Notes under the pieces: generated by a model | What the model was told of the DNA's origin: nothing | The model's database searches: none | Seen by the model: only the letters and a program-made list of their open reading frames with translations | Program-made: the position numbers and the translations under genes | Shown here: positions 7,489 to 61,522 of the stretch, in pieces | Position numbering within the stretch: position 1 is the first letter of the stretch | Layout: each line of letters opens with the position of its first letter | Assembly: GCA_030699385.1 (NCBI GenBank) | Contig: JAUYMY010000060.1 | Span: 1 to 64,000 of the forward strand | Source: Methylobacter sp. | Lineage (GTDB): Bacteria; Pseudomonadota; Gammaproteobacteria; Methylococcales; Methylomonadaceae | Length of the DNA: 64,000 bases | Reading direction: 5' to 3'

Positions 7489-8088
7489 ATGAAAAAATTA
7501 TTCGCCCTGCTTTTGCTCTTATCCCTAGCAGCCTGCACGGCATTACCGCCTAAAAACACTGACAATATTTGCTCCACTTTTAGGGAAAAAGACGGTTGGT
7601 ATGAGGATGCTAAAAATACCTTTAAAAAATGGGGTGTGCCCATTCCTGTACAGATGGCGATTATGCATCAAGAGTCGCGTTTTGTCGCCGATGCCAGGCC
7701 GCCGCGCCCTTGGTTTCTGGGTTTTATTCCTCTGCCTAGAACCAGCAGCGCTTATGGTTATGCCCAGGCTAAAGACGAAACGTGGGGCGATTATCAAAAC
7801 AAGGCGGGCAGTTGGTGGGCGGATCGCGACGAATTTGCCGACGCCACTGATTTTATTGGCTGGTATTGCACCATCAGCCATACTCGCTTAGGCATAGCGA
7901 AATGGGATGCCCGGAACTTGTATCTCGCTTACCACGAAGGTCACGGCGGTTTTTCCCGCAAAAGTTTTGTTAAAAAACCGTGGCTACAACAAGTCGCCAC
8001 TAAAGTGGACAGGCGCGCACAATTATTTCAACGCCAATTGGGTGAATGCCAAGGTGATTTAGACAACAAAGGCTGGTTTTTTTGGTAA
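7489..8088 (+). CDS. lipoprotein with lytic-transglycosylase-like (SLT) domain
   Basis: 199 residues. A lipoprotein signal peptide with lipobox LAAC (Cys16) directs it to the outer membrane or periplasm. The HQESRF motif (about residue 57, candidate catalytic Glu), followed by SSAYGYAQAKDETW (about 85) and YLAYHEGHGG (about 141), matches the SLT fold of the soluble lytic transglycosylase superfamily. It probably cleaves or binds peptidoglycan. The FKBP gene follows after 35 bases, so the two may be co-transcribed. Family membership is clear, exact substrate is not. Confidence 0.75.
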   Translation: MKKLFALLLLLSLAACTALPPKNTDNICSTFREKDGWYEDAKNTFKKWGVPIPVQMAIMHQESRFVADARPPRPWFLGFIPLPRTSSAYGYAQAKDETWGDYQNKAGSWWADRDEFADATDFIGWYCTISHTRLGIAKWDARNLYLAYHEGHGGFSRKSFVKKPWLQQVATKVDRRAQLFQRQLGECQGDLDNKGWFFW

Positions 8089-8123
8089 ACTACCGCCTCT
8101 ACATCAACTATATAGGATAAGTC

Positions 8124-8606
8124 GTGAGAAAAATTCAGACCCAAGTTCTTTCACTCGTCACCATTCTTCTTACAGGATTCACTATGTTTTCAATGGCCAA
8201 CGCCACCACCCCCGCAGAAAGTAAAGCTGCTGGAGTTGCCTTTCTGGCAGAAAATGCTAAAAAAACCAATATCGTCACCACTGCAAGCGGCTTGCAATAT
8301 GAAATATTGACGCCCGGAACCGGCACCGCTCATCCAACAGCAACCGACAACGTTACCGTGCATTACAAAGGCACCACGCTTGACGGTGCCGAATTTGACA
8401 GTTCTTACAGTCGCGGTGAACCTATCAGTTTCCCTCTTAACGGAGTCATCAAGGGCTGGACTGAAGGCGTACAACTGATGACAGAAGGCGCCAAATACCG
8501 TTTTTACATTCCGTCAGAACTCGCTTACGGTGAACGCGGCGCAGGCCGTGCCATCGGCCCGAATGCTACATTGATTTTTGATGTTGAGTTGATCAAAATC
8601 CAATAA
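8124..8606 (+). CDS. FKBP-type peptidyl-prolyl cis-trans isomerase (exported)
   Basis: 160 residues with a GTG start. An N-terminal signal peptide (about 1-27, ending MANA) predicts export to the periplasm. The FKBP domain (about 55-160) contains VTVHYKGTTLDGAEFDSSY, GVIKGWTEGVQLM, YRFYIPSELAYGERG and ALIFDVEL-type ends, all typical of FklB/FkpA. It lacks the long FkpA dimerisation segment, having only a short helical lead. It catalyses proline isomerisation during folding of exported proteins. A strong terminator follows at 8636. Confidence 0.9.
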   Translation: MRKIQTQVLSLVTILLTGFTMFSMANATTPAESKAAGVAFLAENAKKTNIVTTASGLQYEILTPGTGTAHPTATDNVTVHYKGTTLDGAEFDSSYSRGEPISFPLNGVIKGWTEGVQLMTEGAKYRFYIPSELAYGERGAGRAIGPNATLIFDVELIKIQ

Positions 8607-8635
8607 AGCAGAATTAAGGTTCAAAGTTCAAGAAT

Positions 8636-8674
8636 AAAGGCACAAGGCCAGCAGGTCTTGTGCCTTTCTTTTTG
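8636..8674 (+). terminator. rho-independent terminator after FKBP gene
   Basis: An 11-bp perfect stem, AAAGGCACAAG (8636-8646) with CTTGTGCCTTT (8657-8667), is followed by CTTTTTG. Confidence 0.85.
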
Positions 8675-8851
8675 TAACTACTCAGCCGAAAAAGAAATAG
8701 AACACGGACACCACAGATCAGACGGATTTACACGGATTTTTTAAAATAGACGTGCTTTTAATCAGTGATTATCCGTTTTACTTGTGCCCCAGAGGGTATC
8801 AGTGCCATCCGCGTTCCATTTAGTTATTTTTAACAACCGCTGAGTAGTTAC
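8675..8851. repeat. family B repeat, copy 1
   Basis: About 177 bp bounded by inverted ends GTAACTACTCAGC (from 8675) and GCTGAGTAGTTAC (to 8851), with an inner inverted pair AATAGAACACGGAC / ATCCGCGTTCCATT and the motif CAGTGATTATCCGTTT. Related copies are at 16554-16917 and 57726-57885. It has no coding capacity, so it resembles a MITE. It fills the gap between the FKBP terminator and rlmKL; the remaining 56 bases before rlmKL contain the short repeat CTTGCACCTTGCACCTTTAA. Confidence 0.7.
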
Positions 8852-8907
8852 TTCTTTTTTATATTGAGCCTTGCACCTTGCACCTTTAACCTTTTCCCCA
8901 AGTCCTT

Positions 8908-11271
8908 ATGCCCACTTACCAACTCTTTGCCACCACGCCCAAAGCGATGGAATCCATCCTGAGCGATGAACTTCGCGCCATTGGGGTCAGTCATATCAAG
9001 GCCACACTGGCCGGCGTCGCTTTTCAGGGCGATCTGGAAACGGCTTACCGCGCCTGTCTGTGGTCAAGAACGGCAAACCGGATTTTGCTGGTGCTGAGTT
9101 CGTTCGAGGTAAAAAGCCAGCAAGATTTGTATGACGGCGTGCAAAAAATCGACTGGTTTGAGCATATTAATCCTGAGGACAGCTTTGCTGTGTCGTTCAG
9201 CGCGAAAAACTCAGAAGCCATTAACAACACCCATTTTGGCGCGTTAAAAGTCAAAGACGCCATCGTCGATCAAATGCGCGCCCGCTTTCAAACCCGCCCC
9301 AGCATCAATACCGAACAGCCCAATATCCGCATCAATGTGTATTTGAACGGCGAAAGCGCGCAGCTGAGCCTCGATCTTTCCGGCGAAAGCCTGCATCGGC
9401 GCGGTTATCGCGATGTCAGCATCAAAGCGCCGATGAAAGAAAATCTGGCGGCGGCGATGTTATTGCGTAGCGGCTGGCCGCAAATCGCCCAGCAACAGGG
9501 CGCGTTAATCGACCCGATGTGCGGTTCTGGCACGCTGTTGTTGGAAGGCGCGATGATCGCCGCCGATTACGCGCCCGGTTTGCTGCGCGATTATTACGGC
9601 TTTAGCGGCTGGAAAAAACACGATGCCGACTGCTGGAAAAAATTATGCGCGGAAGCCGAACAGCGCAAAAAAATCGGCATTGAAAAATTGCCGGTCATCG
9701 TCGGTTTCGATCAAAACCGCCAGACCGTCAATACTGCGTTGGCGCATGTCGCCAATGCCGGTTTGCAAAACAAGATTCATATTGAACGCCGCGATATTGA
9801 AGATGCGGCACCTGCCGAAAGCTGGACCCCCGGCCTGCTAATCTGCAACCCGCCTTATGGCGAGCGTTTGGGCGATGAGCAAGAAACCGCTGAGTTATAC
9901 AAGAAATTCGGCGAAACATTAAAAAAGCATTTTGTCGGCTGGAAAGCCGCGATGATCATCAGCAACCCGGAATTGGGCTTTCGTTTGGGATTGCGCTCGC
10001 AAAAGCCGATTACGCTGTTTAACGGCGCGCTGGAATGTAAGCTGTTACGGTTGGCTATTGAAGAGCGCAATTTTTTTATTCCCAAAGCCAGAACGCAAGA
10101 AGAGCGGATTACGCAGGCGCTTGAAAGCAGCAAGGTTCAAGCGACTGAAAACCGCCCTACGCTAGCCAATGCCGACAAAGAAACCATTGAACCTGAAGCG
10201 ATAAACGTTCCCAGCGAACCGGCCCGCGCAGAAATGTTCGCCTACAGGGATGTAGGCGAGGGGCGTGAGCTGGGAGCGGTAAGCTTCGCCTACAGGGATG
10301 TAGGCGAGGGGCGTGAGCCTGTCGCTGCTGAGATGTTCGCCAACCGGCTCAAAAAAAATCTGAAAAAACTGTCCAACTGGGTCAAACAAAACCGCATCAG
10401 TTGTTATCGGGTTTACGATGCCGATTTGCCGGAATACGCAGTTGCCGTCGACATTTACCAAGGAGCGCAAACCTGGGTCAATGTCCAGGAATACGAGCCG
10501 CCCAAAAGCATAGACCAACACAAAGCCGATCAGCGCTTGGCCGGGCTATTGGCCGAAATTCCGCGCATCCTTAAAGTCGAGCCCGAACAGGTGTTTTTGA
10601 AAATCCGCCGCAAACAAAAAAGTACCGACCAATACGAAAAATACGGCGACCAAGGCCGTTTCCATATCATTGAAGAAGGCGGCTGCAAACTGCTGGTGAA
10701 TTTTGAGGATTATCTGGACACTGGCTTATTTTTGGATCATCGGCCTATACGCAGGCTGATTCAGCAGCAGGCTAACGGTAAACATTTTCTCAATCTGTTT
10801 GCCTACACCGGCAGCGCCACCGTCCATGCCGCTGTCGGCGGCGCCAAGTCAACCACGACAGTGGATATGTCCAACACCTATGTGAACTGGGCGAAAAAAA
10901 ATTTGGCGCTGAATGTCAGCGAAGGCAATCATGAATTTATACAAGCCGATTGTCTGGACTGGCTGGAACAACAAGCCGCGCAACCGGGCAAACTGTACGA
11001 CCTGATTTTTCTCGATCCGCCGACTTTTTCCAATTCCAAGCGCATGGAGGCGGCGTTCGATATACAAACCGACCATGTTCAACTGATTAATAACGCAGTT
11101 GCCTTGCTCGCGCCGGGCGGCGTGCTGTATTTTTCCACCAATTTCAGGCGATTTAAAATCGATAATGCCGCCTTGTCCGAGTTGATTGTAGAAGACATCA
11201 GCGCGGCAACGGTGCCGGAAGATTTTGCCCGCAACCCCAAAATTCATTATTGCTGGAGGATTCAAGAATAA
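8908..11271 (+). CDS. rlmL: bifunctional 23S rRNA methyltransferase RlmKL (m2G2445 and m7G2069)
   Basis: 787 residues; the E. coli protein is about 700. The N-terminal half (RlmL) has a THUMP domain (about 45-155) and a methyltransferase with DPMCGSGTLLLEGAMIA and catalytic NPPYGERLG. The C-terminal half (RlmK) has LNLFAYTGSATVHAA (about 630) and LIFLDPPTFSNSK (about 700). It modifies two guanines of 23S rRNA with S-adenosylmethionine. The extra length lies mainly in the interdomain linker (about 400-480), where a 99-bp repeat (family C, 10231-10341) is translated in frame as two FAYRDVGEGRE units. The stop overlaps the next start (TAATG). Confidence 0.93.
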   Translation: MPTYQLFATTPKAMESILSDELRAIGVSHIKATLAGVAFQGDLETAYRACLWSRTANRILLVLSSFEVKSQQDLYDGVQKIDWFEHINPEDSFAVSFSAKNSEAINNTHFGALKVKDAIVDQMRARFQTRPSINTEQPNIRINVYLNGESAQLSLDLSGESLHRRGYRDVSIKAPMKENLAAAMLLRSGWPQIAQQQGALIDPMCGSGTLLLEGAMIAADYAPGLLRDYYGFSGWKKHDADCWKKLCAEAEQRKKIGIEKLPVIVGFDQNRQTVNTALAHVANAGLQNKIHIERRDIEDAAPAESWTPGLLICNPPYGERLGDEQETAELYKKFGETLKKHFVGWKAAMIISNPELGFRLGLRSQKPITLFNGALECKLLRLAIEERNFFIPKARTQEERITQALESSKVQATENRPTLANADKETIEPEAINVPSEPARAEMFAYRDVGEGRELGAVSFAYRDVGEGREPVAAEMFANRLKKNLKKLSNWVKQNRISCYRVYDADLPEYAVAVDIYQGAQTWVNVQEYEPPKSIDQHKADQRLAGLLAEIPRILKVEPEQVFLKIRRKQKSTDQYEKYGDQGRFHIIEEGGCKLLVNFEDYLDTGLFLDHRPIRRLIQQQANGKHFLNLFAYTGSATVHAAVGGAKSTTTVDMSNTYVNWAKKNLALNVSEGNHEFIQADCLDWLEQQAAQPGKLYDLIFLDPPTFSNSKRMEAAFDIQTDHVQLINNAVALLAPGGVLYFSTNFRRFKIDNAALSELIVEDISAATVPEDFARNPKIHYCWRIQE
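10231..10341. repeat. family C repeat inserted in frame in rlmL
   Basis: Two copies of a 34-bp unit starting TTCGCCTACAGGGATGTAGG occur at 10237-10270 and 10285-10318, 48 bp apart. Each forms a 9-bp stem TCGCCTACA/TGTAGGCGA. The segment is flanked by near-identical 12-mers, GAAATGTTCGCC (10231-10242) and GAGATGTTCGCC (10330-10341), like a target duplication, 99 bp apart so the frame is kept. The same tandem unit lies at the end of dusA (16409-16535). Confidence 0.8.
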
Positions 11272-11540
11272 TGCGTAAAGTTAAAATACTGGTTTCCGGT
11301 CGTGTGCAAGGCGTTTATTTCCGCTATTTTACCCAGAACAAAGCCCAACATTTTGCCGTGAAAGGTTACGCCAAAAATCTGGCTGATGGTCGGGTGGAAA
11401 TTATCGCCGAAGCGGAACATGTGGTTCTTGAAAAATTCATCGACTGGTGCCGCAAAGGCCCGCTTACCGCACGGGTCGATGCGATTGAAATCACTGAACT
11501 CGAAGCGGGTGAAGCGTTAACGTCTTTTGACATCAAATAA
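11271..11540 (+). CDS. acylphosphatase
   Basis: 89 residues from the ATG at 11271, which overlaps the rlmL stop by one base (TAATG); GGAGG at 11255-11259 is its ribosome site. The family signature is intact: SGRVQGVYFRYFT with the catalytic Arg, and GYAKNLADGRVEI with the catalytic Asn. The enzyme hydrolyses acyl phosphates such as carbamoyl and acetyl phosphate in the cytoplasm. Pairing with rlmL suggests translational coupling rather than a shared pathway. Confidence 0.93.
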   Translation: MRKVKILVSGRVQGVYFRYFTQNKAQHFAVKGYAKNLADGRVEIIAEAEHVVLEKFIDWCRKGPLTARVDAIEITELEAGEALTSFDIK

Positions 11541-11843
11541 CGCGCTAGTAGAGCGTCGATGATTAGTTACAAACAACATCAAATCGCTCAATCCAGACCC
11601 GTATTTATTCACTACGAAGAACACAAAGAATGAAACTTCGTGCATCGTTCCCACGCTTCATAGCTTATCTTTATACACAAGTATCTGCGGGGCGTGATCC
11701 TTGCGTTACCGTGAAACATGCCGATATATAAATTTTCCAGGTTTTAAATAGGCAGGATGTTGTAGTCTCCCGGCCTACTTCGAGATGTGTATAACGATGA
11801 GCACCAGAACGTGGGAATGATTTATTCCAGTGTTTTTCTGATT
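11541..11843. other. intergenic region with degenerate repeat remnants
   Basis: No gene seen. It holds fragments of dispersed repeats: ACGAAGAACACAAAGAATGA (like 62946-62982), an inverted pair CGTTCCCACG / CGTGGGAATG (about 11648 and 11811), and TTCCAGGTTTTAAA, which matches the core of the nested element at 16706-16738. Confidence 0.5.
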
Positions 11844-11872
11844 TTGACAAATCATAACGATATGTATATTAT
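11844..11872 (+). promoter_or_regulatory. sigma-70 promoter of the MarR gene
   Basis: TTGACA (11844-11849), 17-bp spacer, TATTAT (11867-11872). Transcription would start near 11879, leaving a leader of about 20 bases before the ATG at 11899. Confidence 0.75.
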
Positions 11873-11898
11873 ATCCATTGCTTATTATATTTTTTATT

Positions 11899-12321
11899 AT
11901 GCATTCTAAATTCGGTTTTCTAAGTTACGAAATCAGCCATATCATTCGCCAACGTTTTAACAAGGAAGCGGAAAATATCGGCTTGACCCATGCCCAATGG
12001 CGAGCCTTAGTGCATCTGTCCAACAATGAAAACTGTCGCCAAATTGATCTGGCCGAAATCCTCGAAATTAAACCAATTACGCTGGTAAGGCAGATTGACT
12101 TATTAGAAGAGGCAGGGTTGGTGCGGCGTAATAAGGACAGCGAAGATCGGCGTGCTTACCGTCTTGAACTGATGCCCAAGGCGCACATTGTCATGCAGCA
12201 GCTCTGGGAAATTGCCGATGCGGTGGAAGCGGAGGTGCTTAAAACCTTAACTGAACAAGAACAAAAGCTGATGACCGTATTGCTGGAGCGCATTAAAACC
12301 AGCTTGGGTGAATCGATCTGA
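11899..12321 (+). CDS. MarR-family transcriptional regulator
   Basis: 140 residues from the ATG at 11899. An upstream in-frame TTG at 11878 overlaps the expected transcription start, so I rejected it. The winged-helix core is visible: LTHAQWRALVHLSNNENCRQIDLAE, the recognition region IKPITLVRQIDLLEEAGLVRRN and the wing DSEDRRAYRLELM. MarR proteins act as dimers, usually repressing neighbouring genes until a small ligand binds. The membrane protein at 12339 and the SulP/USP pair beyond it are candidate targets. No clear palindromic operator was found in the promoter. Confidence 0.88.
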   Translation: MHSKFGFLSYEISHIIRQRFNKEAENIGLTHAQWRALVHLSNNENCRQIDLAEILEIKPITLVRQIDLLEEAGLVRRNKDSEDRRAYRLELMPKAHIVMQQLWEIADAVEAEVLKTLTEQEQKLMTVLLERIKTSLGESI

Positions 12322-12338
12322 GTTAATGGGATTGGGTA

Positions 12339-12860
12339 TTGAAAAGTTTGCTTAAACCTAACGTGATAATCCGTTTATTTACCAAGCTGACTGACGGCGG
12401 ATTGTGCTATGGCCGGGCTGATGAGACCGACCAGCAAATGCTGATCCGAGTCGGAATACAGTTCGTGGCGTTATTCCTTATTATTATCTTGTTCGATGAA
12501 CTTCTGGATGTAGTGCTCGAAATACTGCATTTTGTTTTTGAATTAATGCACCTGCTTTTTGAGGTTATCGAAGGATTTATTGAAGAAATCTTGGAGCATA
12601 CGTTGAACACGGCTCACCACGAAAGCGAAATCTTCATTATCAGCACGATTTTGATTTTGTTGGTATTCGGGCTATATCAACTCTACAAGATATGGCCGCG
12701 TTTATATCGTTCCTGGCGAAGAAATAGCAGGGCTGTCTGGTTACGATATACCAGGCGTCAATCTTTCTATTGGCGAACATTGCCAATTGGACGTAAATGG
12801 AAATTAATCACCGCTTATGGGATCGGACTTTTCTGTCTTCTATTTTGGATTTTTCTCTAA
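12339..12860 (+). CDS. hypothetical membrane protein
   Basis: 173 residues from a TTG at 12339; the start is uncertain because no ATG is near. Hydrophobic segments lie at about 36-53, 98-115 and 154-173. Between the first two is a Glu/Leu/Phe-rich amphipathic stretch (about 54-88) with repeated FEL, FEV and IEEIL patterns. The segment 119-150 is strongly basic (RLYRSWRRNSRAVWLRYTRR). I do not recognise the family. It begins 17 bases after the MarR stop and is probably co-transcribed with it. Confidence 0.6.
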   Translation: MKSLLKPNVIIRLFTKLTDGGLCYGRADETDQQMLIRVGIQFVALFLIIILFDELLDVVLEILHFVFELMHLLFEVIEGFIEEILEHTLNTAHHESEIFIISTILILLVFGLYQLYKIWPRLYRSWRRNSRAVWLRYTRRQSFYWRTLPIGRKWKLITAYGIGLFCLLFWIFL

Positions 12861-12988
12861 AGGATGATCAATGTCGGTAAAAACGGTTCAAACAATGCCA
12901 CCTTGGCATTCCTTCTATCTTTGAATAACTTTTTATGCTCCTTGGCTGTGTTCCCGCATAGCTTTTTTTTTCAATTTATAGGATAACC

Positions 12989-14482
12989 ATGCTTTTACTC
13001 TCAAAAAAACAGGATTGGTTCGGCAACATACGTGGCGATGTGCTCTCCGGTATTGTCGTTGCTCTTGCACTGATACCCGAAGCGATTGCTTTTTCCATCA
13101 TTGCCGGGGTCGACCCTAAAGTCGGGCTTTATGCGTCTTTTTGTATTGCAGTCATCACTGCCATTGTCGGCGGTAGGCCCGGTATGATCAGTGCTGCGAC
13201 CGGTGCGATGGCCTTGCTGATGGTGACCTTGGTCAAGGATCATGGTTTGCAGTATTTATTAGCGGCAACGGTGTTGACCGGTTTTTTGCAAATTCTATTC
13301 GGCTATCTGAAACTCGGCAGTTTGATGAGTTTTGTGTCGCGCTCGGTAGTGACCGGCTTTGTTAATGCGTTGGCGATATTGATTTTTATGGCGCAATTGC
13401 CCGAATTGATAGGTGTTAGCTGGCATGTTTATGCGATGACGGCAGGCGGACTGGCAATTATTTATCTATTTCCCTACCTTCCTGTTGTCGGCAAAACCCT
13501 GCCTTCGCCGCTGGTTTGTATTGTGACGCTGACCGGTATTGCCATCTATTTGAATCTGGATATTCACACCGTGGGCGATATGGGGCAATTACCCGATACT
13601 TTGCCGATATTCCTCTGGCCTGAGGTGCCGTTGACCTTGGAAACTCTGCAAATCATTTTGCCTTATTCGGTTCCATTGGCCGTGGTGGGTCTATTGGAAT
13701 CGTTAATGACCGCAACCATTGTTGATGACTTAACCGATACGTCCAGCGACAAAAACCGCGAATGTAAAGGTCAGGGCATTGCTAATATCGGTGCCGGTCT
13801 GCTCGGCGGCATGGCGGGTTGCGCGATGATAGGGCAGTCGATTATCAATATTAAATCGGGTGGGCGTGGGCGATTATCGACGCTATGCGCCGGTGTTTTC
13901 TTGTTAATCATGGTGGTTTTTCTGGGCGACTGGATATCTAAAATTCCTATGGCCGCATTGGTGGCGGTGATGATTATGGTATCCATCGGTACCTTTAGTT
14001 GGAATTCTATCGTCAAGCTGAAAGAGCATCCTTTTTCAACCAATATGGTCATGGTGGCGACCGTTGTGGTGGTGGTTTGGACGCACAATTTGGCTTACGG
14101 GGTTTTTGTTGGCGTGTTGCTGGCCTCCTTGTTTTTTGCTAACAAAATCGGTCATTTCATGTATGTCGAGTCAGCTTTGAATGAAGACAGCAACACGCGA
14201 ACTTATCAGGTAATCGGGCAGGTTTTCTTTAATTCGGCAGATAAATTTACTGCCGCTTTCGACTTTAAGGAAGCCGTTGATAAGGTGGTGATCGATTTAC
14301 ACCGTGCGCATTTTTGGGATATATCGTCGGTGACCGCGCTGGATAAAGTCGTGATCAAGTTCCGCAGAGAGGGCGCTGAAGTCGAATTAATCGGTTTAAA
14401 CGAGGCCAGTTCGACCATTGTCGATCGTTTTGGCGTTCATGATAAACCGGAAGACATTGAAAAAATCATGGGAGGACACTAA
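12989..14482 (+). CDS. SulP-family anion transporter with STAS domain (BicA-like)
   Basis: 497 residues. The membrane part (about 1-390) starts with [22 protein letters not shown], a SulP signature, and contains [16 protein letters not shown] and LVSR-like [11 protein letters not shown] segments. The C-terminal STAS domain (about 400-490) has [15 protein letters not shown]. SulP proteins carry sulfate, bicarbonate or other anions across the inner membrane. The compact size and direct coupling to a universal stress protein resemble BicA-type sodium/bicarbonate transporters; a methanotroph with CO2-fixing or carboxylation needs could use that, but substrate cannot be read from sequence alone. 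The stop overlaps the next ATG. Confidence 0.88.
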
Positions 14483-15354
14483 TGAATAATAACAATACAA
14501 ATTGGGTGCTGGCCTGCATCGACGGCTCGTCATTAACCGAAGCGGTTTGCGATTACGCGGCCTGGATCGCACAACGGGTTGATGCGCCGTTAAAACTGCT
14601 GCATGGCATTGACCATCACCATGAAACCGCAACCGCAATAGACTTGACCGGCAATATCGGCTTGGACAGCCGGGAGCATTTGCTGGAAGACATCATCAAT
14701 CTGGAGCAACAGCAAAGCAAGCTGCGTTTGCAGCAAGGCAAGCAATTATTGCAAGACGCCAAAGAGCGGGTTATTAGGGCCGGTGTCAGCGAGCCGGTCT
14801 GCAATCAGCGCCACGGCAGCCTGGTTGAGTCGCTGATTGAGCTTGAAGATGACATCCGCGTTTTGGTAATCGGCGTGCGCGGCAAAGTGCATGAAAATAA
14901 GCCTGACAAGCTGGGCGCAAAATTGGAGTCCATTATCCGTTCTTTGCACCGGCCCATTCTGGTGGTGAACGCCCCGTTTAAAGCGCCGCAACGCATCATG
15001 ATTGCTTATGACGGCAGTACGGCATCTGAAAAAGCCATTGATATGGTGGCGAATAGCCCTTTGTACAAAGGCCTCGACTGCCATTTGGTGTGTGTCTGTA
15101 AAGATGATGTTAGCGCTGACAGGCTGCTGGATCAGGCTACCGATAAATTGCGCAGCGCCGGCGGCATTGAGGTCACATCGGTTAAACTGCAAGGTAAAGT
15201 TGACTTGGCGCTGTGCGATTATCAGTCTAAACGCGACATTGATCTGACTATTATGGGCGCATTCAGTCATACCCGGATTCATGATCTGCTGCTCGGCAGT
15301 TTTACCGCCAAGATGCTGTTGAATACCAAAAAACCGCTGCTGTTGCTCAGATGA
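14482..15354 (+). CDS. tandem universal stress protein (UspA family)
   Basis: 290 residues with two Usp domains (about 1-152 and 170-290). The first begins WVLACIDGSSLTEAVCDYAA and the second MIAYDGSTASEKAIDM. The second ends with LTIMGAFSHTRIHDLLLGSFT, an ATP-binding GxxxxxxxxxxGS-type loop. Usp proteins bind ATP or act in stress signalling. It overlaps the SulP stop by one base, so the two are produced together and probably interact; the same two modules are fused in the gene at 23422-25737. Confidence 0.88.
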   Translation: MNNNNTNWVLACIDGSSLTEAVCDYAAWIAQRVDAPLKLLHGIDHHHETATAIDLTGNIGLDSREHLLEDIINLEQQQSKLRLQQGKQLLQDAKERVIRAGVSEPVCNQRHGSLVESLIELEDDIRVLVIGVRGKVHENKPDKLGAKLESIIRSLHRPILVVNAPFKAPQRIMIAYDGSTASEKAIDMVANSPLYKGLDCHLVCVCKDDVSADRLLDQATDKLRSAGGIEVTSVKLQGKVDLALCDYQSKRDIDLTIMGAFSHTRIHDLLLGSFTAKMLLNTKKPLLLLR

Positions 15355-15422
15355 TTTATCCAGATGTCAGCCGCATTAGAAATGTCTAAAAACACCTCAA
15401 AAATGTATAAAAAATAATCAAA

Positions 15423-16427
15423 ATGAACTTGTTAGAATCCAACGACGAGCTTTACCACAGTAAATTTAACGCTCATCGGTTTTGTATAGCGCCAATGCTC
15501 GATTGGACGGACAGACACTGCCGTTATTTCCACCGCCTGATTTCACAACAAGCGCTGCTCTATAGCGAAATGGTAACCACCGGCGCGTTGATTCATGGCG
15601 ATCATCAGCGGTTTTTGCAGTTTAATGCGTCAGAACATCCGCTTGCGTTTCAATTGGGCGGCAGCAACCCGCATGATCTGGCTCTCTGCGCCAAAATGGT
15701 TGAAGATTACGGCTATGACGAGGTGAATTTGAATGTCGGCTGTCCTAGTGACCGGGTGCAAAATGGTCGTTTTGGCGCTTGCCTGATGGCCGAACCCGAG
15801 CTGGTTGCTGAATGTGTTGCCGCCATGAAACAGACGGTTTCAATCCCGGTTACGGTCAAATCGAGAATCGGCATTGATGAGCGCGATTCTTATCAGGAGC
15901 TGGCGCATTTTGTCGCGACGGTTGCCGCTGCGGGTTGTGAAACTTTCATCATTCATGCCCGAAAAGCCTGGTTGAGCGGCTTGTCGCCGAAGCAAAACCG
16001 CGATGTGCCGCCGTTGCGTTACGAGGTAGTTTATCAAATCAAGCAGGACTTTCCGCAACTGAACATTATCCTAAACGGCGGCATCAGCACGCTGGAGCAG
16101 GCAGACGAGATTTTGCAGCAGGTTGATGGCGTGATGGTTGGCAGGGAGGCTTATCACAATCCCTATTTATTGGCCGATGTCGATAGACGGTTTTTTGGCG
16201 CGCCCACAGAACCCCAGTCACGGGATAAGATTATGCAGTTGTTAATACCCTATATTCAGCAGCAGCTTGATGACGGCGTGCGTTTGCACAGCGTGTCTCG
16301 GCATATTTTGGGGCTTTTTCATGGCGAGCCCGGCGCACGCGGTTGGCGGCGGCATTTGAGTGAAAATGCCGGTAAATCCGGTGCCGACATACAAGTGATT
16401 TTGGATGCTTTGCCTACAGGGATGTAG
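15423..16427 (+). CDS. dusA: tRNA-dihydrouridine(20/20a) synthase DusA
   Basis: 334 residues. An FMN TIM barrel (about 18-250) with the DusA-specific catalytic loop NVGCPSDRVQNGRFGACLM (catalytic Cys near 107), IHARKAWLSGLSPK, and NGGISTLEQADEIL. It reduces uridine 20/20a of tRNA using NADPH. The conserved C-terminal GLFHGEPGARGWRRHLSENA is present, but the last residues, LPTGM, and the TAG stop come from a family C repeat starting at 16409, so the native tail was probably replaced. The start at 15423 is preceded by an AT-rich region. Confidence 0.94.
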   Translation: MNLLESNDELYHSKFNAHRFCIAPMLDWTDRHCRYFHRLISQQALLYSEMVTTGALIHGDHQRFLQFNASEHPLAFQLGGSNPHDLALCAKMVEDYGYDEVNLNVGCPSDRVQNGRFGACLMAEPELVAECVAAMKQTVSIPVTVKSRIGIDERDSYQELAHFVATVAAAGCETFIIHARKAWLSGLSPKQNRDVPPLRYEVVYQIKQDFPQLNIILNGGISTLEQADEILQQVDGVMVGREAYHNPYLLADVDRRFFGAPTEPQSRDKIMQLLIPYIQQQLDDGVRLHSVSRHILGLFHGEPGARGWRRHLSENAGKSGADIQVILDALPTGM

Positions 16428-16535
16428 GCAAGGGGCGTGAGCTTGGAGCGGAAGCTTTGCCTACAGGGCAATGATTGCTCCGGGCAATCATTTTGCATTT
16501 CCTCCATCCTTGGAGGTTAGATGTAGGCAAAGGGT
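16409..16535. repeat. family C repeat overlapping the dusA end
   Basis: First unit 16409-16442 (TTTGCCTACAGGGATGTAGG and on), 16-bp-type linker GCTTGGAGCGG, then a second unit starting at 16456. The second is split by about 52 bp (16469-16520) containing a hairpin TGATTGC/GCAATCA, before ATGTAGGCAAAGGG resumes at 16521. Spacing matches the two units in rlmL. The dusA stop codon (16425-16427) is inside the first unit. Confidence 0.75.
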
Positions 16536-16553
16536 TACTGTATCAAATCGAAT

Positions 16554-16917
16554 GCTGTAATTGCTCAGTCCTATGCTAAACATAAAATATTAAATAGAAC
16601 ACGGATAACACAGATGAAACGGATAATCACTGATTAAAAGCACCGGTATATACTTTGAACGGTTAAGTTTTCGGCTTATGTTATGCGAGAAATAGGCCGA
16701 ACTGCAGACCTTCCAGGTTTTAAAAACCTGGAAGGTCTAACTCGCAACGTTTTGAAATAGACAGCTTTCAGTTTTTTGGCGCGGAATAGCTGACGTTGAT
16801 TGTAAAAACCGAAAACTTAGGCGTTTAAAAATATACCCGTGCAAATCCGTCTTATCTGTGTCGTCCGTGTTCTTCGGGGTGAAATATTTTTAACTGCTAT
16901 GAGTGGCAAGTTACCGC
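16554..16917. repeat. family B repeat, copy 2, interrupted
   Basis: Outer halves match family B: AATAGAACACGGATAACACA and CGGATAATCACTGATTAAAA on the left, AAATCCGTC then CCGTGTTCTTCGG on the right; outer inverted ends GTAATTGCTCAG and ATGAGTGGCAAGTTAC. The centre is occupied by a separate element at 16658-16825. The remaining gap to folE (16918-17002) is AT-rich leader without a gene. Confidence 0.65.
16658..16825. mobile_element. nested MITE-like element
   Basis: 168 bp with 17-bp terminal inverted repeats, AACGGTTAAGTTTTCGG at 16658-16674 and the complement of AACGCCTAAGTTTTCGG at 16809-16825 (two mismatches). Its centre is a 16-bp-arm perfect palindrome, AGACCTTCCAGGTTTT and complement, at 16706-16738. 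It has no coding capacity and sits inside family B copy 2. No clear target duplication was seen. Confidence 0.65.
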
Positions 16918-17002
16918 CGGTGTAGGTAAAGAGCGAGGCTTTAAAATTGATAACGCCATGCTGTATACTGCCTCACTATTTTTAATAACAGAGATTTAAA
17001 TT

Positions 17003-17545
17003 ATGGAACAGCATTTTGCCAGGATTATCGAAGGCGTCGGTGAAGATTTAACACGCGAAGGTCTGATCGATACGCCAGCGCGCGCGGCTAAGGCATTCAA
17101 ATTTTTAAACAACGGCTACGAAAAAACGCTGGAAGAAGTGCTGAACGGGGCTATCTTCAGCGCCGATACCGAAGATATGGTGATTGTGAAGGATATTGAA
17201 CTGTACTCGCTGTGTGAGCATCATTTGTTGCCGTTTATCGGCAAGTGCCATGTGGGCTATCTGCCGCGCGGCAAGGTGATGGGCTTGTCCAAAGTGGCGC
17301 GGGTGATCGATATGTATGCGCGCCGTTTACAAATTCAGGAAAAACTGACCAAACAAATAGCCGATGCGATAGAGTTGGCAACCGGTGCGCGGGGCGTGGC
17401 GGTAGTGATTGAAGCCAAGCATTTGTGCATGATGATGCGCGGTGTTGAAAAGCAAAATTCGGTGATGACGACTTCGGTGATGACTGGGGCTTTCCGTAAG
17501 GAAATCAGCACCCGTTCCGAATTTTTAAACCTGATTAACCGATAA
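17003..17545 (+). CDS. folE: GTP cyclohydrolase I
   Basis: 180 residues, typical FolE-I length. It converts GTP to dihydroneopterin triphosphate, the first step of folate and pterin synthesis; methanotrophs also need methanopterin-type cofactors. Zinc and active-site motifs are visible: [20 protein letters not shown] (about residue 70), [20 protein letters not shown], and [22 protein letters not shown] at 17003 follows the end of family B repeat sequence by about 85 bases. hemH begins 31 bases after its stop. Confidence 0.96.
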
Positions 17546-17576
17546 ATTTAATTTTTTAGTGAGCTAAACCAAAGCA

Positions 17577-18545
17577 ATGACAGCAAAAAAAACCGGCGTA
17601 TTGTTGGCAAATCTGGGCTCGCCCACGGCTCCGACAACATCGGCAGTCAGGAAGTTCCTTCGGGCGTTTTTGTGGGATCCGCGCGTGGTCAACCTGCCTC
17701 GGCCGTTATGGTGGATGATACTGAACTTTTTTGTGCTGCCTTTTCGTCCACGTAAATCGGCCAAAGCTTACCGCAAAATCTGGCATGAAAAAGGTTCGCC
17801 GTTAATTTACCTGACCCGGCAGTTGACCGAGTTGGTTGCTGATAAGTTGCTGGATAAAGGTGTCACGACACAGCATGTGATGCGTTACGGCGAGCCCTCG
17901 ATAGCGAAGCAGTTGAGGGTTTTCAAACAGGCCGGGATTGATAATCTAATCGTGTTGCCGCTGTATCCGCAATACTCATCGACCACCACGGCATCGATTT
18001 ATGATGATGTCATTAAAGAGTTGAATCAGTGGAGGCATCTGCCGAACATTCACTTTATCAGCGATTATCATGAGCATAGCCATTACATTGCCGCCGTGGC
18101 TGAATCCATCGAGCAGAGCTGGCGCGAACACGGCAAAAACGAGCTGTTATTGATGTCTTTTCACGGCTTGCCCGAGCAGTTGACAAAATGGGGCGACCCT
18201 TATTTTCATCAATGCCATAAAACCGCCGCGCTGATTGCCGAAAAATTGGGCTTGGAACAAAAGCAGTGGATGATTGTGTTCCAGTCGCGTTTTGGCAAGG
18301 CGCAATGGCTAAAGCCTTATTGCGTGGACACCTTACAGGCGCTTCCCGGACAAGGCATCAAGACGATAGACGTGGTTTGTCCTGGTTTTGCTGTCGATTG
18401 CCTGGAAACGCTGGAAGAAATTGCGATGGAAAACAAGTCGATTTTTCTTGAGTCGGGAGGCAAAGAGTACCGCTATATAGCGGCGCTGAACGATTCGGAT
18501 ATTCATGTTGATGCGATAGTTAAGTTGATTGAACAGACGTTGTAG
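17577..18545 (+). CDS. hemH: ferrochelatase
   Basis: 322 residues. It inserts ferrous iron into protoporphyrin IX at the inner membrane, the last step of protohaem synthesis. Motifs include GVLLANLGSPTAPTT at the N-terminus, RYGEPSI (about 102), LPLYPQYSSTTTASI (about 128) and the catalytic-histidine segment LLMSFHGLPEQ (about 192), then FQSRFGKAQWLKPY and CPGFAVDCLETLEEI. It lies between folE and the MutS-like gene on the same strand. Confidence 0.96.
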   Translation: MTAKKTGVLLANLGSPTAPTTSAVRKFLRAFLWDPRVVNLPRPLWWMILNFFVLPFRPRKSAKAYRKIWHEKGSPLIYLTRQLTELVADKLLDKGVTTQHVMRYGEPSIAKQLRVFKQAGIDNLIVLPLYPQYSSTTTASIYDDVIKELNQWRHLPNIHFISDYHEHSHYIAAVAESIEQSWREHGKNELLLMSFHGLPEQLTKWGDPYFHQCHKTAALIAEKLGLEQKQWMIVFQSRFGKAQWLKPYCVDTLQALPGQGIKTIDVVCPGFAVDCLETLEEIAMENKSIFLESGGKEYRYIAALNDSDIHVDAIVKLIEQTL

Positions 18546-22140: not shown

Positions 22141-22342
22141 TGGGCGATTTTCTGAAAAAAACAGTCCAAAATAATTGTCCACGAAAAGCACGAAAAGCCA
22201 AAAGTAGCATCTCCAGGCGACACGAAAATAAGTGACGCTATTATATTTTGACTGCTTTTTTTCGTGGCTTTCGTGACTTTCGTGGACTTTGTTTTTCTAC
22301 AGCTTTCGATCATCAGGGACATTTTTTATTAGAAATCACCTT
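22141..22342. repeat. family A MITE-like repeat, copy 1
   Basis: About 200 bp, same family as copies at 23264, 34262 and 61375. Ends are inverted: GGGCGATTTTCTGAAAAA on the left and AGAAATCACCTT on the right. Inside are blocks rich in CACGAAAA and their complement TTTTCGTG, which fold on each other. Reverse orientation compared with copy 3. A truncated piece (about 22096-22128) precedes it. Together these fill the 321-base gap between the transglycosylase and the epimerase gene; a usual leader (22343-22392) remains. Confidence 0.8.
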
Positions 22343-23263: not shown

Positions 23264-23425
23264 GCTTAGGCGATTTCTGAGAAAGAATATCCCCTAATGG
23301 TCGTGGCTGTAGAAAAACAGAGTCCACGAAAATCACAAAAAACACGAAAATTTTGTATTTTTCGTGTTTTTCGTGCCTTTCGTGGACAATTATTTGGGTA
23401 TGCTCTTTTCAGGAAATAGCCTTAG
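23264..23425. repeat. family A MITE-like repeat, copy 2
   Basis: About 160 bp. Left end GCTTAGGCGATTTCTGAGAA, right end TTTTCAGGAAATAGCCTTAG, inverted with respect to each other. Its right terminus supplies the stop codon of the minus-strand SulP-USP gene (23422-23424). The core holds the ACGAAAA / TTTTCGT foldback. Confidence 0.8.
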
Positions 23426-34261: not shown

Positions 34262-34453
34262 AAAGTGATTTCCGAAAAAAATAATATCCCTTAATGATCT
34301 TGTGCTGTAGAAAAACAGAGTCCACGAAAAACACGAAAGCCACGAAAAAAAGCAGCGAAAATAATGGCATTTCTTATCTTCGTGTCACTTGGGGATGCCT
34401 ACTTTTGACTTTTCGTGGACAATTATTTGGCTATGCTTTTTTCAAGAAATCAC
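34262..34453. repeat. family A MITE-like repeat, copy 3
   Basis: About 190 bp, left end AAAGTGATTTCCGAAAAAA and right end TTTTTTCAAGAAATCAC, inverted. Very similar to the reverse complement of copy 1, including CTGTAGAAAAACA and TTTTCGTGGACAATTATTTG. It ends 3 bases before the methyltransferase ATG at 34457 and so must supply its leader. Confidence 0.8.
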
Positions 34454-43409: not shown

Positions 43410-46400
43410 ATGATAACTCTATCGATTGAATCATCCGCGCCCCACTTCGTCACCACTGACCGATATAACCGGTTTAAAAAAATCCTGCAACAACCGACGT
43501 CGATGCTGAACGCCGATAGTGTCTTATTCAAATCCTGGCTTAGTTTAATCCGTAGTCATTTGCCTACATTAAGCAGTGCAGAATTAATTATTGCCGACGG
43601 CCTGTGTTCGCAGATTGCCGAACTCTTAACCGGCGCCTTACAGCCGGTCGCCGCATTGGGCAGCGTTGACAACCCCTTAGCCGCCATCACCGCCCGTCTT
43701 GCCGGACAAAACTTACACACCTTGCATCTGGTTGCCCACGGCCAAGCCGGCACGTTTAACCTTGGCGGACAACGTATAGATGCCGAGCTGTTGCGCGCAA
43801 ATGCCGACTTACTGGCGCAATGGCAAGTGCAGCGCATCGCCTTGTGGAGCTGCTCGGTCGGACAGGATAACGAATTTATCCGCTTATTAAGCGAATTGAC
43901 CGGCGCGCAGGTATTCGCCGCCGAACAGCCGCTGGGCAAATTAGACCACACCCACAACTGGCAACTCAGCCACGGCTTTAACCAAAATCCTTTTTCCTCA
44001 ACAACCCTTGCAAACTGGAGTTATCAATTGGCTACGTTTAATTTTGGCGCTGCGTATGAAGTATTAAAAGACAGAACGCCTGCAGGTAAAGAATCTAATA
44101 CCCATGACTTTGATTCTGCGGCAAAATTTGCTAGCGTTACCGTTGACGACCAAAATGTTGATAGTCGTTATTTTAGTGGTAACGATGTTTATGCTGTAGG
44201 GCTGAAAATTGGTGGTTCTGATTACTATGGCTGGATCAGTCGGCCAATCAAAGTCGGTGGCGTCGTTAAAGGTTTTTACTTTTGGACGGATACGCAATTT
44301 ACTAGTCTTGCCGCTGCAATAGCTGACGGCAATACTGATGGTGATCGTGATGTCACCGACAATCGTGGCTTCATTTTGGTGGTTGATGAAACGTATTTTA
44401 ATAACCTGAGTCCGATCTCAGGAACCATCAAAAATGTCGGCTCTTCCTCCGATCGTGTTGATTCTGCGTTGAATGCGCTGATCCAACCCGAAGTTAAATT
44501 AACGGCCGTTGCCGACACGGGTATTGCCACTGAAGCAGGCGGTATCAATAATGGCACAGCAGGCTCAGATGCGACTGGCAATGCGCTAACCAACGATACC
44601 GGTACTGCCCTCTCAAAAACTATCACTGAGATCGGCACTACAGCTGCTGACCAAACGGTAGCTTCAGGCTCCACTTCTACAACTGGCACCACGGTGACCG
44701 GTCAATATGGCTCACTCAAAATCGGTGCCGATGGCAGCTATAGCTATGCCATTAGCAATCAACTCGATGCCGCTATACAAGCATTACGCACCACAGCCAA
44801 TACCCTTACCGATACTTTTACCTATACGGTAACCGATAGCAACGGGCTTAAATCCAGCACTACATTGGCTATTACCATTCAAGGGACTAATGATGCGCCG
44901 GTGGCAAATAACGATTACAACGTCGCCAAAGAATCCCTGAAAACCGATGGCACCGAATACACCGGCACCGACTTAGTAGGTAAATTAGCTGAAGGCAATG
45001 TCCTTAGTAATGACACCGATGTTGATCGTTATGACGAAACCAAAACCATCACAGGAACAAGCACTTCCGGCTCCGCAACCGGCACGACATCTGGCGCAAC
45101 AGGATCAGCGACAACGCTGTCTTTCACCACATTGCCGAGTAATGTCTCTGTTGGCTATTATGTATTTCTGGATGGCGACGGTGTAGTAGGAACGAGCGGA
45201 GCAGGAACTGCCCTGAAAGACGCGTCAAACAATCAGATTACGATTAGCGCAATAAACACCACGAATAAAACCTTCACATTAAGTGCAGTGGTCAGCAATG
45301 TAACCCTGAGCGGCACTCCCATTCTGGGTTTCGCCAACAAAGCGAATGGGTCTGGAGCTTATAAAGACGCTCAAATATCGTCTGCTGTTTCTAGCACCAA
45401 CACGACTGTTAATCTAAGCGGAACGATTACAGGGACTATTGCCTCTGGCATGACCGAAACAAGCACAGGTGCCCAAGTGATTTCGGTCATCTATGACACT
45501 GCAGGAAAGCCAACCTCAGTGAAGCTTGACGGGATTCACACTTTTACCAGCCAATCCCTAAGCTTCACCGGAAACAGTGCGGCGGCGCAAGACATTTCCG
45601 GGAACTACGGCTTGCTCAAGCTCAACAGCGACGGCAGTTATATCTACACGCCTTACATCGCCAACGAGGCGTTGGCTGAAGGCGATACACGCACCGAAGT
45701 ATTCAACTACACCATGCAGGATGCGGTCGGCTTGCAAAGTACCGCGACATTGACGATTTCGGTTCTCGGCTCCAGCGGTACGAGCTTTGCCTACGCTAAT
45801 GCCGATACTGCGATAGTGAACGAAGCCGGTGGTACCAATAATCAAACAGCAGAAACAAATTCTACGCCTACTGGCAACGTTTTAACCAATGATAGCTCGA
45901 CGTTAACTAGCCCAACCGTTACGGTACTTTCTGCGCGTACTGATAGCACCGCGCCAAGCTCTGCAACCCCAGTGGTTACTAATACAACGGTGACAGGCCT
46001 TTACGGCACCTTAACCATCAGTAGCACTGGTGTCTACACCTATACGGTTAATAATGACAACGGCGCTGTTCAGTCATTGCGCGATAGTAATGCTACTTTG
46101 ACTGAAAACTTCGTCTACACGATGCAGGCGGTTAAAAATAGTACTACATTAACCAGTTCGGCCACCTTAAAAATTACCATCCAAGGCGCCAACGATGCCC
46201 CGATTGCTGGCAACGTGGCTGCCACCGCCATCGAAGCCAGCGGCGAAAACAACAGTATTCCCGGTTACAACCCCAGCGGCAATGTACTCGACTACGCCAG
46301 CGATGTTGACGATTTGCGCTCCGAATTGCGAGTCACAGCCTTGCGCGCTGGTGGCTCCGAAGGTTCTGGCTCTGCTGGGACAGTGGGTACCGCTCTAGTC

Positions 46401-49400
46401 GGTACTTATGGTTCATTGACACTAAGCGCTGATGGTACCTGGAACTATACGGTGGATAATAGCAATCCATTAGTCAACGTAATGGCACCCAATGACACCC
46501 TTACCGACAGTTTTAACTATACCGTCACCGATCGTACTGGTACTGCACTCTTTGATACAGCGGTTTTGAACGTCACCATTCAAGGCGCAGCGGACAACAT
46601 CACCGTCAACGACATCTTCGTCAACGAAGCATCGCCTTACGCTGTCTTTACCGTGACCGGTGATAAAAATGCCACTGTTACGCTGAGTTTGAGTGATACC
46701 GAAGGACTGAACAGTAACGATACCAAAGCGACATTGGGCACGGATATTAGTAATCAATTACAGTATTACAATGGCTCTAGCTGGGTTAATTACGGTACAG
46801 GCACGCCAACTATTCCCGACAACGGCAAATTGCTGGTTCGAGTGGCGGTTAATACAGATGACGTTCATGAAGGCAACGAAGCTTTTACGCTAAAAGCCAC
46901 TTCCAATAATGTTAGTAGTATTGGTGTCGCTACCATCAATGACGAAGGCGATTTAGAGGGGAATATTTATCTTGATAATACTACCGGCACACCAGGCAGC
47001 GGCACACTAGACGACGACCGTCCCACCATTAGCATCACCAGTCCAACCGTTAACGAAGGCGCAAATGCCGTATTTACCGTCAGTATCGACAAAACGGCCA
47101 CTAAAGCGATTAGCTTCACGCCTACGCTCACGGGAACTGGGGCAATATTAGGCACCGATACCGAAGCGGCAAACACTTTACAAGTTTCAACAAACGGAGG
47201 TACCGACTGGACTACCGTTTCAGGCCCAGTCACCATCGCCGCAGGTCAAACCTCGCTGCAACTACGCCTTGCTACTAAGACTGATACTGATACAGAATCT
47301 AATGAAACCTTTACCCTTGAGACAGGGTATATTTCGGGCACCGTTAAAAATCAAGATGGCGTAACGGGCACTGCGACGATTCAGGATGGAGCTAGTCAAA
47401 GCGTCAGCAGTGTCACCGCCGAAGACAACGCCAACACCGGCCAAACCCCGGTCGACAGCACCGTCGTCGAAGGCAACAGCCTGCGTTATACCGTTGCCCT
47501 CAGTGTGGCCAGCCCAATTGCCACCGAATACAGCCTAGCGATTACGGGTACCGCTACAAGTACGGATTATGCTGCGCCCAGCAGCTGGACCTTCAGCAAT
47601 GACGTCACTTGGAAAGACACCAATTACAATGCCCTGACGATTCCGGCCAACGTCACCAGCTTCACCATCACCGTCGGCACCACTGACGACAGCGCGATTG
47701 AAAGCGCCGAAACCCTGATTCTGACCGTGGGCGGCCAAGCCGGTACTGGCAACATTACCGACAACGACAGTCAAAGCGTCAGCAGTGTCACCGCCGAAGA
47801 CAACGCCAACACCGGCCAAACCCCGGTCGACAGCACCGTCGTCGAAGGCAACAGCCTGCGTTACACCGTTGCCCTCAGTGTGGCCAGCCCAACCGCCACC
47901 GAATACAGCCTAGCGATTACGGGTACCGCTACAAGTACGGATTATGCTGCGCCCAGCAGCTGGACCTTCAGCAATGACGTCACCTGGAAAGACACCAATT
48001 ACAATGCCCTGACGATTCCGGCCAACGTCACCAGCTTCACCATCACCGTCGGCACCACTGACGACAGCATCATCGAAAGTGCAGAGACGATGATCTTGAC
48101 GATCGGCGGTGTCGCCGGTAATGGCGGCATTATTGATAATGATCTGCTTGTTACCAGCCCAACGGTCAATGAAGCCTCGCCCTACGCGGTATTCACCGTC
48201 ACCGGCTCGGTTGGGCAACAACTCAGCCTGGCGCTGACGGCGGGTACGGCAACCGGCAACGGTACCGATTTTGGCGGCGGCGCTAATCTGGAGTATTCGC
48301 TAAACGGCGGCGTTGATTGGATTGCCTACAGCGTCACGCCTAATCCCACGCTGACCGGCACGACGCTCTTGGTGCGCACGCCGGTCATTGAAGACACCAT
48401 CGCCGACAACGGCGAAACTTTTACCCTGACCGCCACGCCAGCAGGTGGTTCAGCCGTAATCGGCACTGCCACTATCAACGATCAGGGCGGCGGCACTATT
48501 TTCAATGCCAACGGCACTGAGAACACTACGGCGCCAAAATCTGATGATCGTGCTTTGGCGGTTAGCAGTCCAACGGTCAATGAAGCCTCACCCTATGCGG
48601 TGTTTACTGTCACCGGCGTGGCGGGGCAACAAGTCACATTGGCTTTGGGTAACACCAGCGCTACGACCGATATTGACGCGACATTGGGCACTGACACCGG
48701 CAATGCGGGCAGTGGCGTTCCGTTGCAGTATTTTAATGGCACGAGCTGGGTGGATTACACGGCTAATAGTCTGGTGGCTATTCCAGCGGGTAGCACCACG
48801 TTGTTGGTCAGAACCAAAATAATCAATGACAGCCTGAACGAAGGTGCGGAAACTTTCACGCTGACGGTGACACCGAACGGCGGCAGCGCGGTAGTTGGCA
48901 CTGCGACTATTAAAGACGATGGCACCGGCGATATTTATCCTGATAACAACACCGGCGCGACCGATCCGAATGCGGTCAAAGATGACGACCGCGCTATTAA
49001 TGTGGCTATCACTGCTATCAGTGAAGACAGCGGTACGCCGGGTGATTTTATTACCAACGATTCTTCGCTGATTTTTTCAGGCACGGCGACGGCGGGCAGC
49101 AGTGTGTTAATCAAGCTGTTTGATGCCAATAACACGCTGGTATTTGAAGCGACACAAACGGCGGTTAATGGCGTTTGGTCGGTTGATCGTTCGGCCTTTA
49201 ATCTGGCGGGCGGCAGTTATCAAATTATCGCTGAAGCCAGCAATAGTTCAGGTCAGAAGGCTAATGCCAATAAGTTGCTGACGATTGATAGTGACATCAA
49301 GGTGACCAATCTTGATATTACCGATGCGACCGATACCGGCGCTAATGATTTGATTACCGCTAATGGCAATCCGCAATTAATTTTGCAGGCTTCTTCTGGC

Positions 49401-61374: not shown

Positions 61375-61522
61375 AGGCAATTTCCTGAAAAAGACATACC
61401 CAAAATTGTCCACGAAAAGCACGAAAAAACACGAAAATTTCGTGGCTTTCGTGTTTTTCGTGGACTTTATTTTTTACAGACCATTGATCATTAATGGACG
61501 TTATTTCTCGGAAATCACCTTA
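61375..61522. repeat. family A MITE-like repeat, copy 4
   Basis: About 148 bp. Left end AGGCAATTTCCTGAAAAAG, right end CTCGGAAATCACCTT, inverted. Core CCACGAAAAGCACGAAAA with its foldback. Same orientation as copy 1; the gap 61325-61553 otherwise holds nothing. Confidence 0.8.

Follow-up and report, generated by a model that had tools for sequence, protein, structure and literature searches.

The repeat described here is best set against several known families of small repeats. Rickettsia palindromic elements are palindromic and dispersed, lie in frame in unrelated genes and are read as protein, at a length given as about 150 bp in the relevant part of PMC10969869. GTAG/CGTC REPs are short stem-loops of several bacteria, some of which lie in frame within ORFs and some of which provide stop codons, according to the sections of PMC3733652 that treat them. 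The enterobacterial RU or MITE-like repeats are small (103-168 bp), have open frames and are read inside genes in the examples given in part of PMC2759123. In IS200/IS605 and TnpA-REP systems, a hairpin serves as the substrate and the target is chosen by guide base pairing, as the portion of PMC8266576 on targeting describes.

The element from Methylobacter resembles the Rickettsia elements in being palindromic, dispersed and in frame in unrelated genes, and the initial annotation was right to draw the comparison, in that a dispersed repeat of palindromic form has inserted into an open frame. It differs in length (48 bp, against the figure of about 150 bp in that part of PMC10969869), in host, lineage and apparently sequence, in having two size classes divided between genic and intergenic DNA, and in that one gene is hit at five sites. 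Its hairpin, with a 9-bp stem that includes two host bases and a 4-nt loop, falls within the range set for GTAG/CGTC REPs (stem 5-13 bp, loop 2-20 nt), but its GTAG lies inside the stem, whereas the definition in the part of PMC3733652 concerned calls for a terminal unpaired GTAG/CGTC. Like the RU or MITE-like repeats it is small and read within genes, although those are longer (103-168 bp in the examples above), have another sequence and belong to another host group. With IS200/IS605 it shares a hairpin; an arm base also pairs with a flank base (85/88 copies), which may reflect guide pairing or later correction of the arm. Unlike them, it could be linked to no transposase in 40 Y1 contexts and occurs in both orientations within one gene. 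Because it lacks a free GTAG/CGTC tag and is not of Rickettsia element size, it is filed in none of these classes. A literature search (titles and abstract starts) returned no report of such an element in Methylobacter, and the string 'Methylo' is absent from PMC3733652. Palindromes inside ORFs are already known; what is new is the organism, the gene-dwelling 48-bp class and the repeated invasion of one gene.

The window, that is, the whole 64-kb stretch of DNA analysed, comprises bases 1-64000 of contig C14 from a Methylobacter genome of 3.57 Mb in 84 contigs (G000). Its forward strand carries rlmL (8908-11271), assigned from the ORF list, Pfam and a sequence alignment with E. coli 3V97 as the gene for the bifunctional 23S rRNA methyltransferase RlmKL. 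The 787-aa product has the Pfam domains RlmL_1st, THUMP, UPF0020 and Methyltrans_SAM. The RlmL-RlmK linker contains an insert of 99 bp at 10240-10338, so that the in-frame repeat of 33 codons first noted in this gene is confirmed, as 48 + 51 bp. Unit 1 (10240-10287, forward strand) is the canonical 48-bp form, with sequence GCCTACAGGGATGTAGGCGAGGGGCGTGAGCTGGGAGCGGTAAGCTTC and reading AYRDVGEGRELGAVSF, and is supported by its sequence, a repeat search, a peptide scan and allele comparison. Unit 2 (10288-10338, forward strand), placed by the same means other than the peptide scan, is a 51-bp variant with a host-like tail and reads AYRDVGEGREPVAAEMF. Each unit carries the hairpin TCGCCTACA-GGGA-TGTAGGCGA, located by pattern match and folding at 10238-10259 for unit 1, with a 9-bp stem, the loop GGGA and first two bases that are host target, and at 10286-10307 for unit 2. 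One 48-bp copy adds 16 amino acids in the host frame. Folded as a single strand, the insert stretch beats 200/200 shuffles (z = -3.98). The pattern TCGCCTACANNNATGTAGGCGA, with up to 3 mismatches, matches 6 times in the window (3 places, both strands) against 0.02 expected. The tandem at 10240-10338 is missing from the output of Tandem Repeats Finder but was picked up by a second repeat search. Rfam models gave no match at gathering threshold over window positions 8000-18000, and a plasmid search with the rlmL region returned 15 records with distant rlmL-type matches. Insert sites were located on the alignment with E. coli 3V97; the predicted structures of two RlmKL proteins (mean pLDDT 46.3 and 42.6, from 8 alignment rows) were not used for siting.

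We read this segment, with a probability of roughly 0.8, as a head-to-tail pair of units of a small, mobile Methylobacter palindrome that has no gene of its own, whose 48-bp class would be read within proteins and whose 46- and 47-bp classes are intergenic or at gene ends. The features of the DNA itself that carry this reading are dispersed copies, precise 48-bp insertions, both orientations, several host genes, segregation by size, and pairing between arm and flank.

Near-identical 12-mers flank the insert (GAAATGTTCGCC and GAGATGTTCGCC), as the initial annotation observed in suggesting a target duplication. The two copies do exist, but target-site duplication is not supported. Each 12-mer ends in the target hexamer TTCGCC, also present at the element's own junction, while the remainder is host-like and is not duplicated where G018, G022, G008 and G021 have clean single insertions at this position; across sites, the sequence shared at junctions varies from 1 to 10 bp. 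Transposition of the single-strand IS200/IS605 type is not known to leave a target duplication.

The sister genome G020 (MAG C17_concoct.bin.6), whose RlmL is 98% identical to the window's protein, has the 51-bp unit only; the rlmL DNA of the two genomes differs at 172 of 2300 compared bases. Unit 1 of G000 has a canonical end and so did not arise by simple copying of unit 2. Either the two genomes had already split when a canonical element landed at TTCGCC, or G020 lost one unit by deletion between the repeats. A local tandem repeat produced in rlmL by replication slippage, with no mobile element, could also give two head-to-tail units where G020 has one (a difference that deletion between repeats explains as well), and the three units of G013 point the same way. 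The precise solo copies that occur, in either orientation, in further genes and genomes make that account most improbable and refute pure slippage as the origin, although slippage may alter copy number.

The 30 aligned RlmL proteins are those with loci, from 55 genomes with an rlmL match; a Methylobacter fragment (G017) was omitted. The peptide scan finds the 16-aa element peptide in 14/22 Methylobacter proteins and in 0/8 from outside the genus, with up to 7 substitutions over 16 residues allowed for the forward reading (FAYRDVGEGRELGAVS) and up to 6 for the reverse-strand reading (AYRSQLTPLAYIPVGE); actual matches have 0-4. A more degenerate look-alike occurs outside the genus in G023. The remaining 8/22 Methylobacter genes have no recognisable copy. 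Alleles of rlmL without the insert are thus found in relatives, where the initial annotation proposed to look for them, and the segment is neither universal in the RlmKL of Methylococcales nor confined to it, given 14 of 22 in Methylobacter and copies dispersed elsewhere.

The element occupies five sites in rlmL, in both orientations. Site A lies between FIPK and AKTQ (G021), site B between AEM and FANRL (G000, G020, G008, G018, G022 and G021), and site B' further upstream in the linker than B (G007 and G013). The two sites within the RlmK half are C, between DIYQGE and QTW (G021, G006, G003, G011, G019, G005 and G007), and D, between NEG and HEF (G007 and G002). Both orientations occur within a single rlmL gene in G021 and in G007 ('Ca. 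Methylobacter titanis'), and the type strain M. tundripaludum SV96, an isolate (G019), carries the insert at site C, inside the RlmK half. The view that the peptide sits in the linker between the two methyltransferases therefore holds for the window, but in relatives the unit is also found in the RlmK half (C and D) and in other proteins. Relative to E. coli 3V97, site C falls where the E. coli protein is three residues shorter and site D beside a one-residue gap, so that both are probably in surface turns. The linkers of G019 and G021 contain what appear by eye to be decayed element tails. Another translated insert, KPSPEGEG..., which we take to be a repeat, is present in the rlmL linker of G001 (L030), G009 (L026), G006 (L020) and G012 (L014), and the linker thus accepts more than one kind of sequence.

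On a gene tree built without linker and inserts, minimum changes number 5 for B, 3 for B', 4 for C and 2 for D, on a topology whose base and deep branches are weakly supported and with a B' label for G002 that rests on a remnant only. With 5 changes at B and 4 at C, allele exchange may mimic repeated insertion. Units may have reached identical sites through exchange of rlmL alleles between species, or through old insertion followed by repeated loss, a reading to which we give a substantial minority share of the probability: patchy presence at identical positions and the homoplasy on this weakly resolved tree favor it, but the different sites, the two orientations, the other genes and an AsmA-family site filled in G012 alone still need insertion.

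Five of the ten distinct Methylobacter sites are in rlmL, the others being two in AsmA and one each in the propeller, PepA and PAS genes (p = 6e-14 against chance placement in coding DNA). A tolerant linker explains the insertions at B and B' but leaves those at C and D unaccounted for; short-range hopping from a copy already in place would account for all of them. The same concentration in one 2.4-kb gene could suggest that the inserts serve the host protein, through linker spacing, an mRNA hairpin or regulation, and are kept by positive selection. We hold this improbable, since 8 of the 22 Methylobacter rlmL genes do without a recognisable copy, unrelated proteins are interrupted too, and the linker tolerates other inserts.

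Alignments show that the element interrupts AsmA-family and beta-propeller genes in frame, with empty alleles in relatives. AsmA-family site 1, between I and KDFA, is filled in G012, G009 and G008 (3/20 aligned rows) and empty in the others; site 2, between LQKII and DEGKA, is filled in G012 only (1/20). That alignment omits L262 and the weak matches L264-L266. In 7/23 genomes, including that of the window, a YNCE-like beta-propeller gene is filled at a site that closely follows an apparent signal peptide (AQPFAYKDVGKGRELGAASFAYISN). Leucyl aminopeptidase (PepA) has a copy between its N-terminal and catalytic domains in G002 and G015, and a PAS sensor gene has degenerate copies in G018 and G011. 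Outside the genus, the element occurs in a NuoF-like protein of MAG RIFOXYD12_FULL_61_37 and in rlmL of a MAG titled Methylomagnum ishizawai.

A search of the window's own genome, one of the checks first proposed, finds further matches at C14:16409 (within the window), C9:18645, C14:164850 and C71:125651. Element matches occur in 22/61 genomes searched, and these include 19 of the 23 genomes of Methylobacter. Among GTDB genomes, a 28-base exact pattern matched 28 stretches. Of these, 22 bear a Methylobacter title, including those from the isolates M. tundripaludum SV96 and M. marinus A45; the remaining 6 are gammaproteobacterial MAGs. Judged by these copies, the element is a dispersed palindromic repeat of the genus Methylobacter. 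Viral contigs gave 0 matches to a slightly wider element pattern, which speaks against viral carriage.

Elsewhere in the window, own-genome match, size count and Pfam identify a 47-bp-class copy (16412-16458, forward strand) that overlaps the 3' terminus of a Dus-family ORF and provides the stop codon. This ORF (PF01207, 15423-16427) ends in a TAG that comes from the GTAG of the overlapping element hairpin. In the second hairpin of this copy (16459-16531, forward strand), the loop is broken up by some 50 bp that contain another two inverted repeats, as seen by eye. The window contains other repeats as well. Arrays of a 9-bp unit, CACGAAAAA / TTTCGTG, often in facing pairs, lie at 22180-22284, 23325-23384, 34323-34347 and 61411-61462 (12 matches to the unit in the window, 0.03 expected). 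A 375-bp tandem repeat of 2 copies with 93% matches (47394-48132) lies within ORF 43410-54026, which encodes 3538 aa with DUF4347, Ig-like and cadherin-like domains.

Element length was counted for 88 distinct spacer-bearing copies, from loci among the matches listed, with L306-L343 and the degenerate PAS copies excluded; "in genes" here means five gene families picked after the data were seen, PAS not counted. Of 35 in-gene copies, 33 are 48 bp and 2 are 51 bp. The 53 other copies comprise 24 of 46 bp, 15 of 47 bp and 1 whose fit to 49 bp is doubtful, and a further 13 for which the script gave no length, 10 of which have another hairpin in place of the spacer; one of the 13, L193, counted by hand at 48 bp, was added by hand to the measured set. 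Length is divisible by three in 35/35 in-gene copies vs 1/41 measured others (p = 7e-21 by copies, which are not independent; 2e-10 with one count for each of 11 in-gene sites). Four of the 53 non-gene copies touch ORFs 200 aa or longer; two of the four lie ahead of the probable start, and the other two at the C-terminus. Among later loci, one 46-bp copy lies within a 252-aa frame (L339) and another within a 203-aa frame (L341); as neither frame has a Pfam match, both are taken as spurious, which falls short of proof. Intergenic-class copies at L175, L177, L338 and L340 supply the last residues up to the stop of longer ORFs, of which that at L338 encodes an HDOD/response-regulator/GGDEF protein and that at L340 a HAD hydrolase. 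In intergenic mosaics the spacer is often swapped for another hairpin, close to CTCCTGCATCCATGCAGTCG; such loci are L091, L092, L094, L098, L101, L105, L106, L124, L133 and L203.

A separate census of the 48-type spacer gave 35 matches in 18/23 genomes, which we assign as follows: 19 in rlmL, 4 in AsmA, 7 in the propeller gene, 2 in PepA, 1 in PAS and 2 others. These last two have 3 mismatches each; L193 has no frame over 63 codons, and the match at G007:C81 is without a hairpin, inside a 280-codon frame. Because the searches were seeded by an in-gene copy, intergenic 48-bp copies should have ranked high if present. Genes would be expected to lose copies that shift the frame; this loss does not by itself explain why 48-bp copies are almost missing from intergenic DNA, which is the most surprising part of the result. 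Three of the six frames of the consensus unit are open, including both frames used in genes (one per strand), and freedom from stops in these two would allow the 48-bp class to be tolerated there. Selection would remove insertions that break the frame, and the 16-residue peptide is probably made and nearly neutral.

Filled alleles differ from empty ones by a precise 48-bp insertion. Its exact limits can be read at AsmA site 2, where the complementary strand of the empty allele reads CATC/AATGAT and the filled one CATC/GAAGCTTACC...GTAGGC/AATAAT. Sequence shared at the junction amounts to 1 bp at AsmA site 2, 2 bp at AsmA site 1, at B' in G007 and in the NuoF-like gene, 2-6 bp at C, 3-5 bp in PepA, 3-6 bp at B, 5 bp at D, 6 bp at A and 4-10 bp in the propeller gene. 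With one copy per site, this microhomology exceeds that at other positions in the same stretch (combined p = 1e-5 with the copy we chose for each site, 6e-5 with the weakest). The pattern is that of favored targets similar in sequence to the junction of the element itself, not of a duplication of fixed length.

In 85/88 copies, the host base directly following GTAGGC is complementary to a base in the opposite arm of the element (C-G 18, T-A 67, unpaired 3). By distinct in-gene sites there are 4 C-G and 6 T-A (p = 0.005), a count in which site B is entered as C-G though T-A (G008, G022) and a mismatch (G021) occur there, and in which a mutated arm at D in G002 is set aside. At site C, in the propeller gene and at both AsmA sites, empty relatives already carry the paired base, so the base preceded the element there; some of the more remote AsmA rows have a different one, as has the empty sister G015 at D. 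The second flanking base is A in 29/32 in-gene copies and in 33/34 other copies not followed by another unit. Two in-gene copies retain the stem through a two-sided change (T-A for C-G at stem pair 5). The pairing suggests guide-like, single-strand target choice; it could alternatively come from later correction of one arm by copying.

One route, which we put forward tentatively and at somewhat less than even odds, is that the element is copied as single-stranded DNA folded into its hairpin, an internal base helping to pick a target beside TY (RA on the other strand), in a manner modelled on the guide sequences of IS200/IS605 and REP transposases. A strict lagging-strand bias is at odds with the occurrence of both orientations in a single gene. 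The repeat might instead be of REP type, moved by a resident REP-associated tyrosine transposase, an explanation that we rank beside allele exchange. The hairpin arm with GTAG, the tandem and mosaic intergenic copies and the presence of Y1-family genes in 22/23 genomes searched agree with it, but GTAG is paired within the stem and is not the free end tag of the definition in that part of PMC3733652, and 40 Y1 contexts (39 from relatives, 1 from the window's genome) show no REPtron-like arrangement. Some element match, at up to 4-5 mismatches, occurs in 8/40 of these contexts, and a near-identical copy (up to 1 mismatch) in 3/40, 0.4-2 kb from the gene, with no control set. On these contexts, the Y1 genes are no more than candidate RAYT partners of the element.

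A bolder reading, which we consider rather unlikely, is that the palindrome has split into gene-dwelling and intergenic lineages. Its 48-bp form, two bases longer than the 46-bp relative, would live almost only in coding sequence, be read through on either strand and find its targets by pairing between an arm base and a host base, as a translated parasite with rlmL for its main home.

In-frame palindromic elements are best known from Rickettsia, where reduced genomes are the usual explanation. The same phenomenon is here found in free-living methanotrophs, with filled and empty alleles side by side in related genomes: a scrap of mobile DNA that appears to spread inside the working genes of methane-eating Methylobacter, with a split in size that bears on selection for the reading frame. 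Since filled and empty alleles are both available and the type strain SV96 carries an insert, the copying route, base-paired targeting and the effect on the rRNA methyltransferase are open to test.
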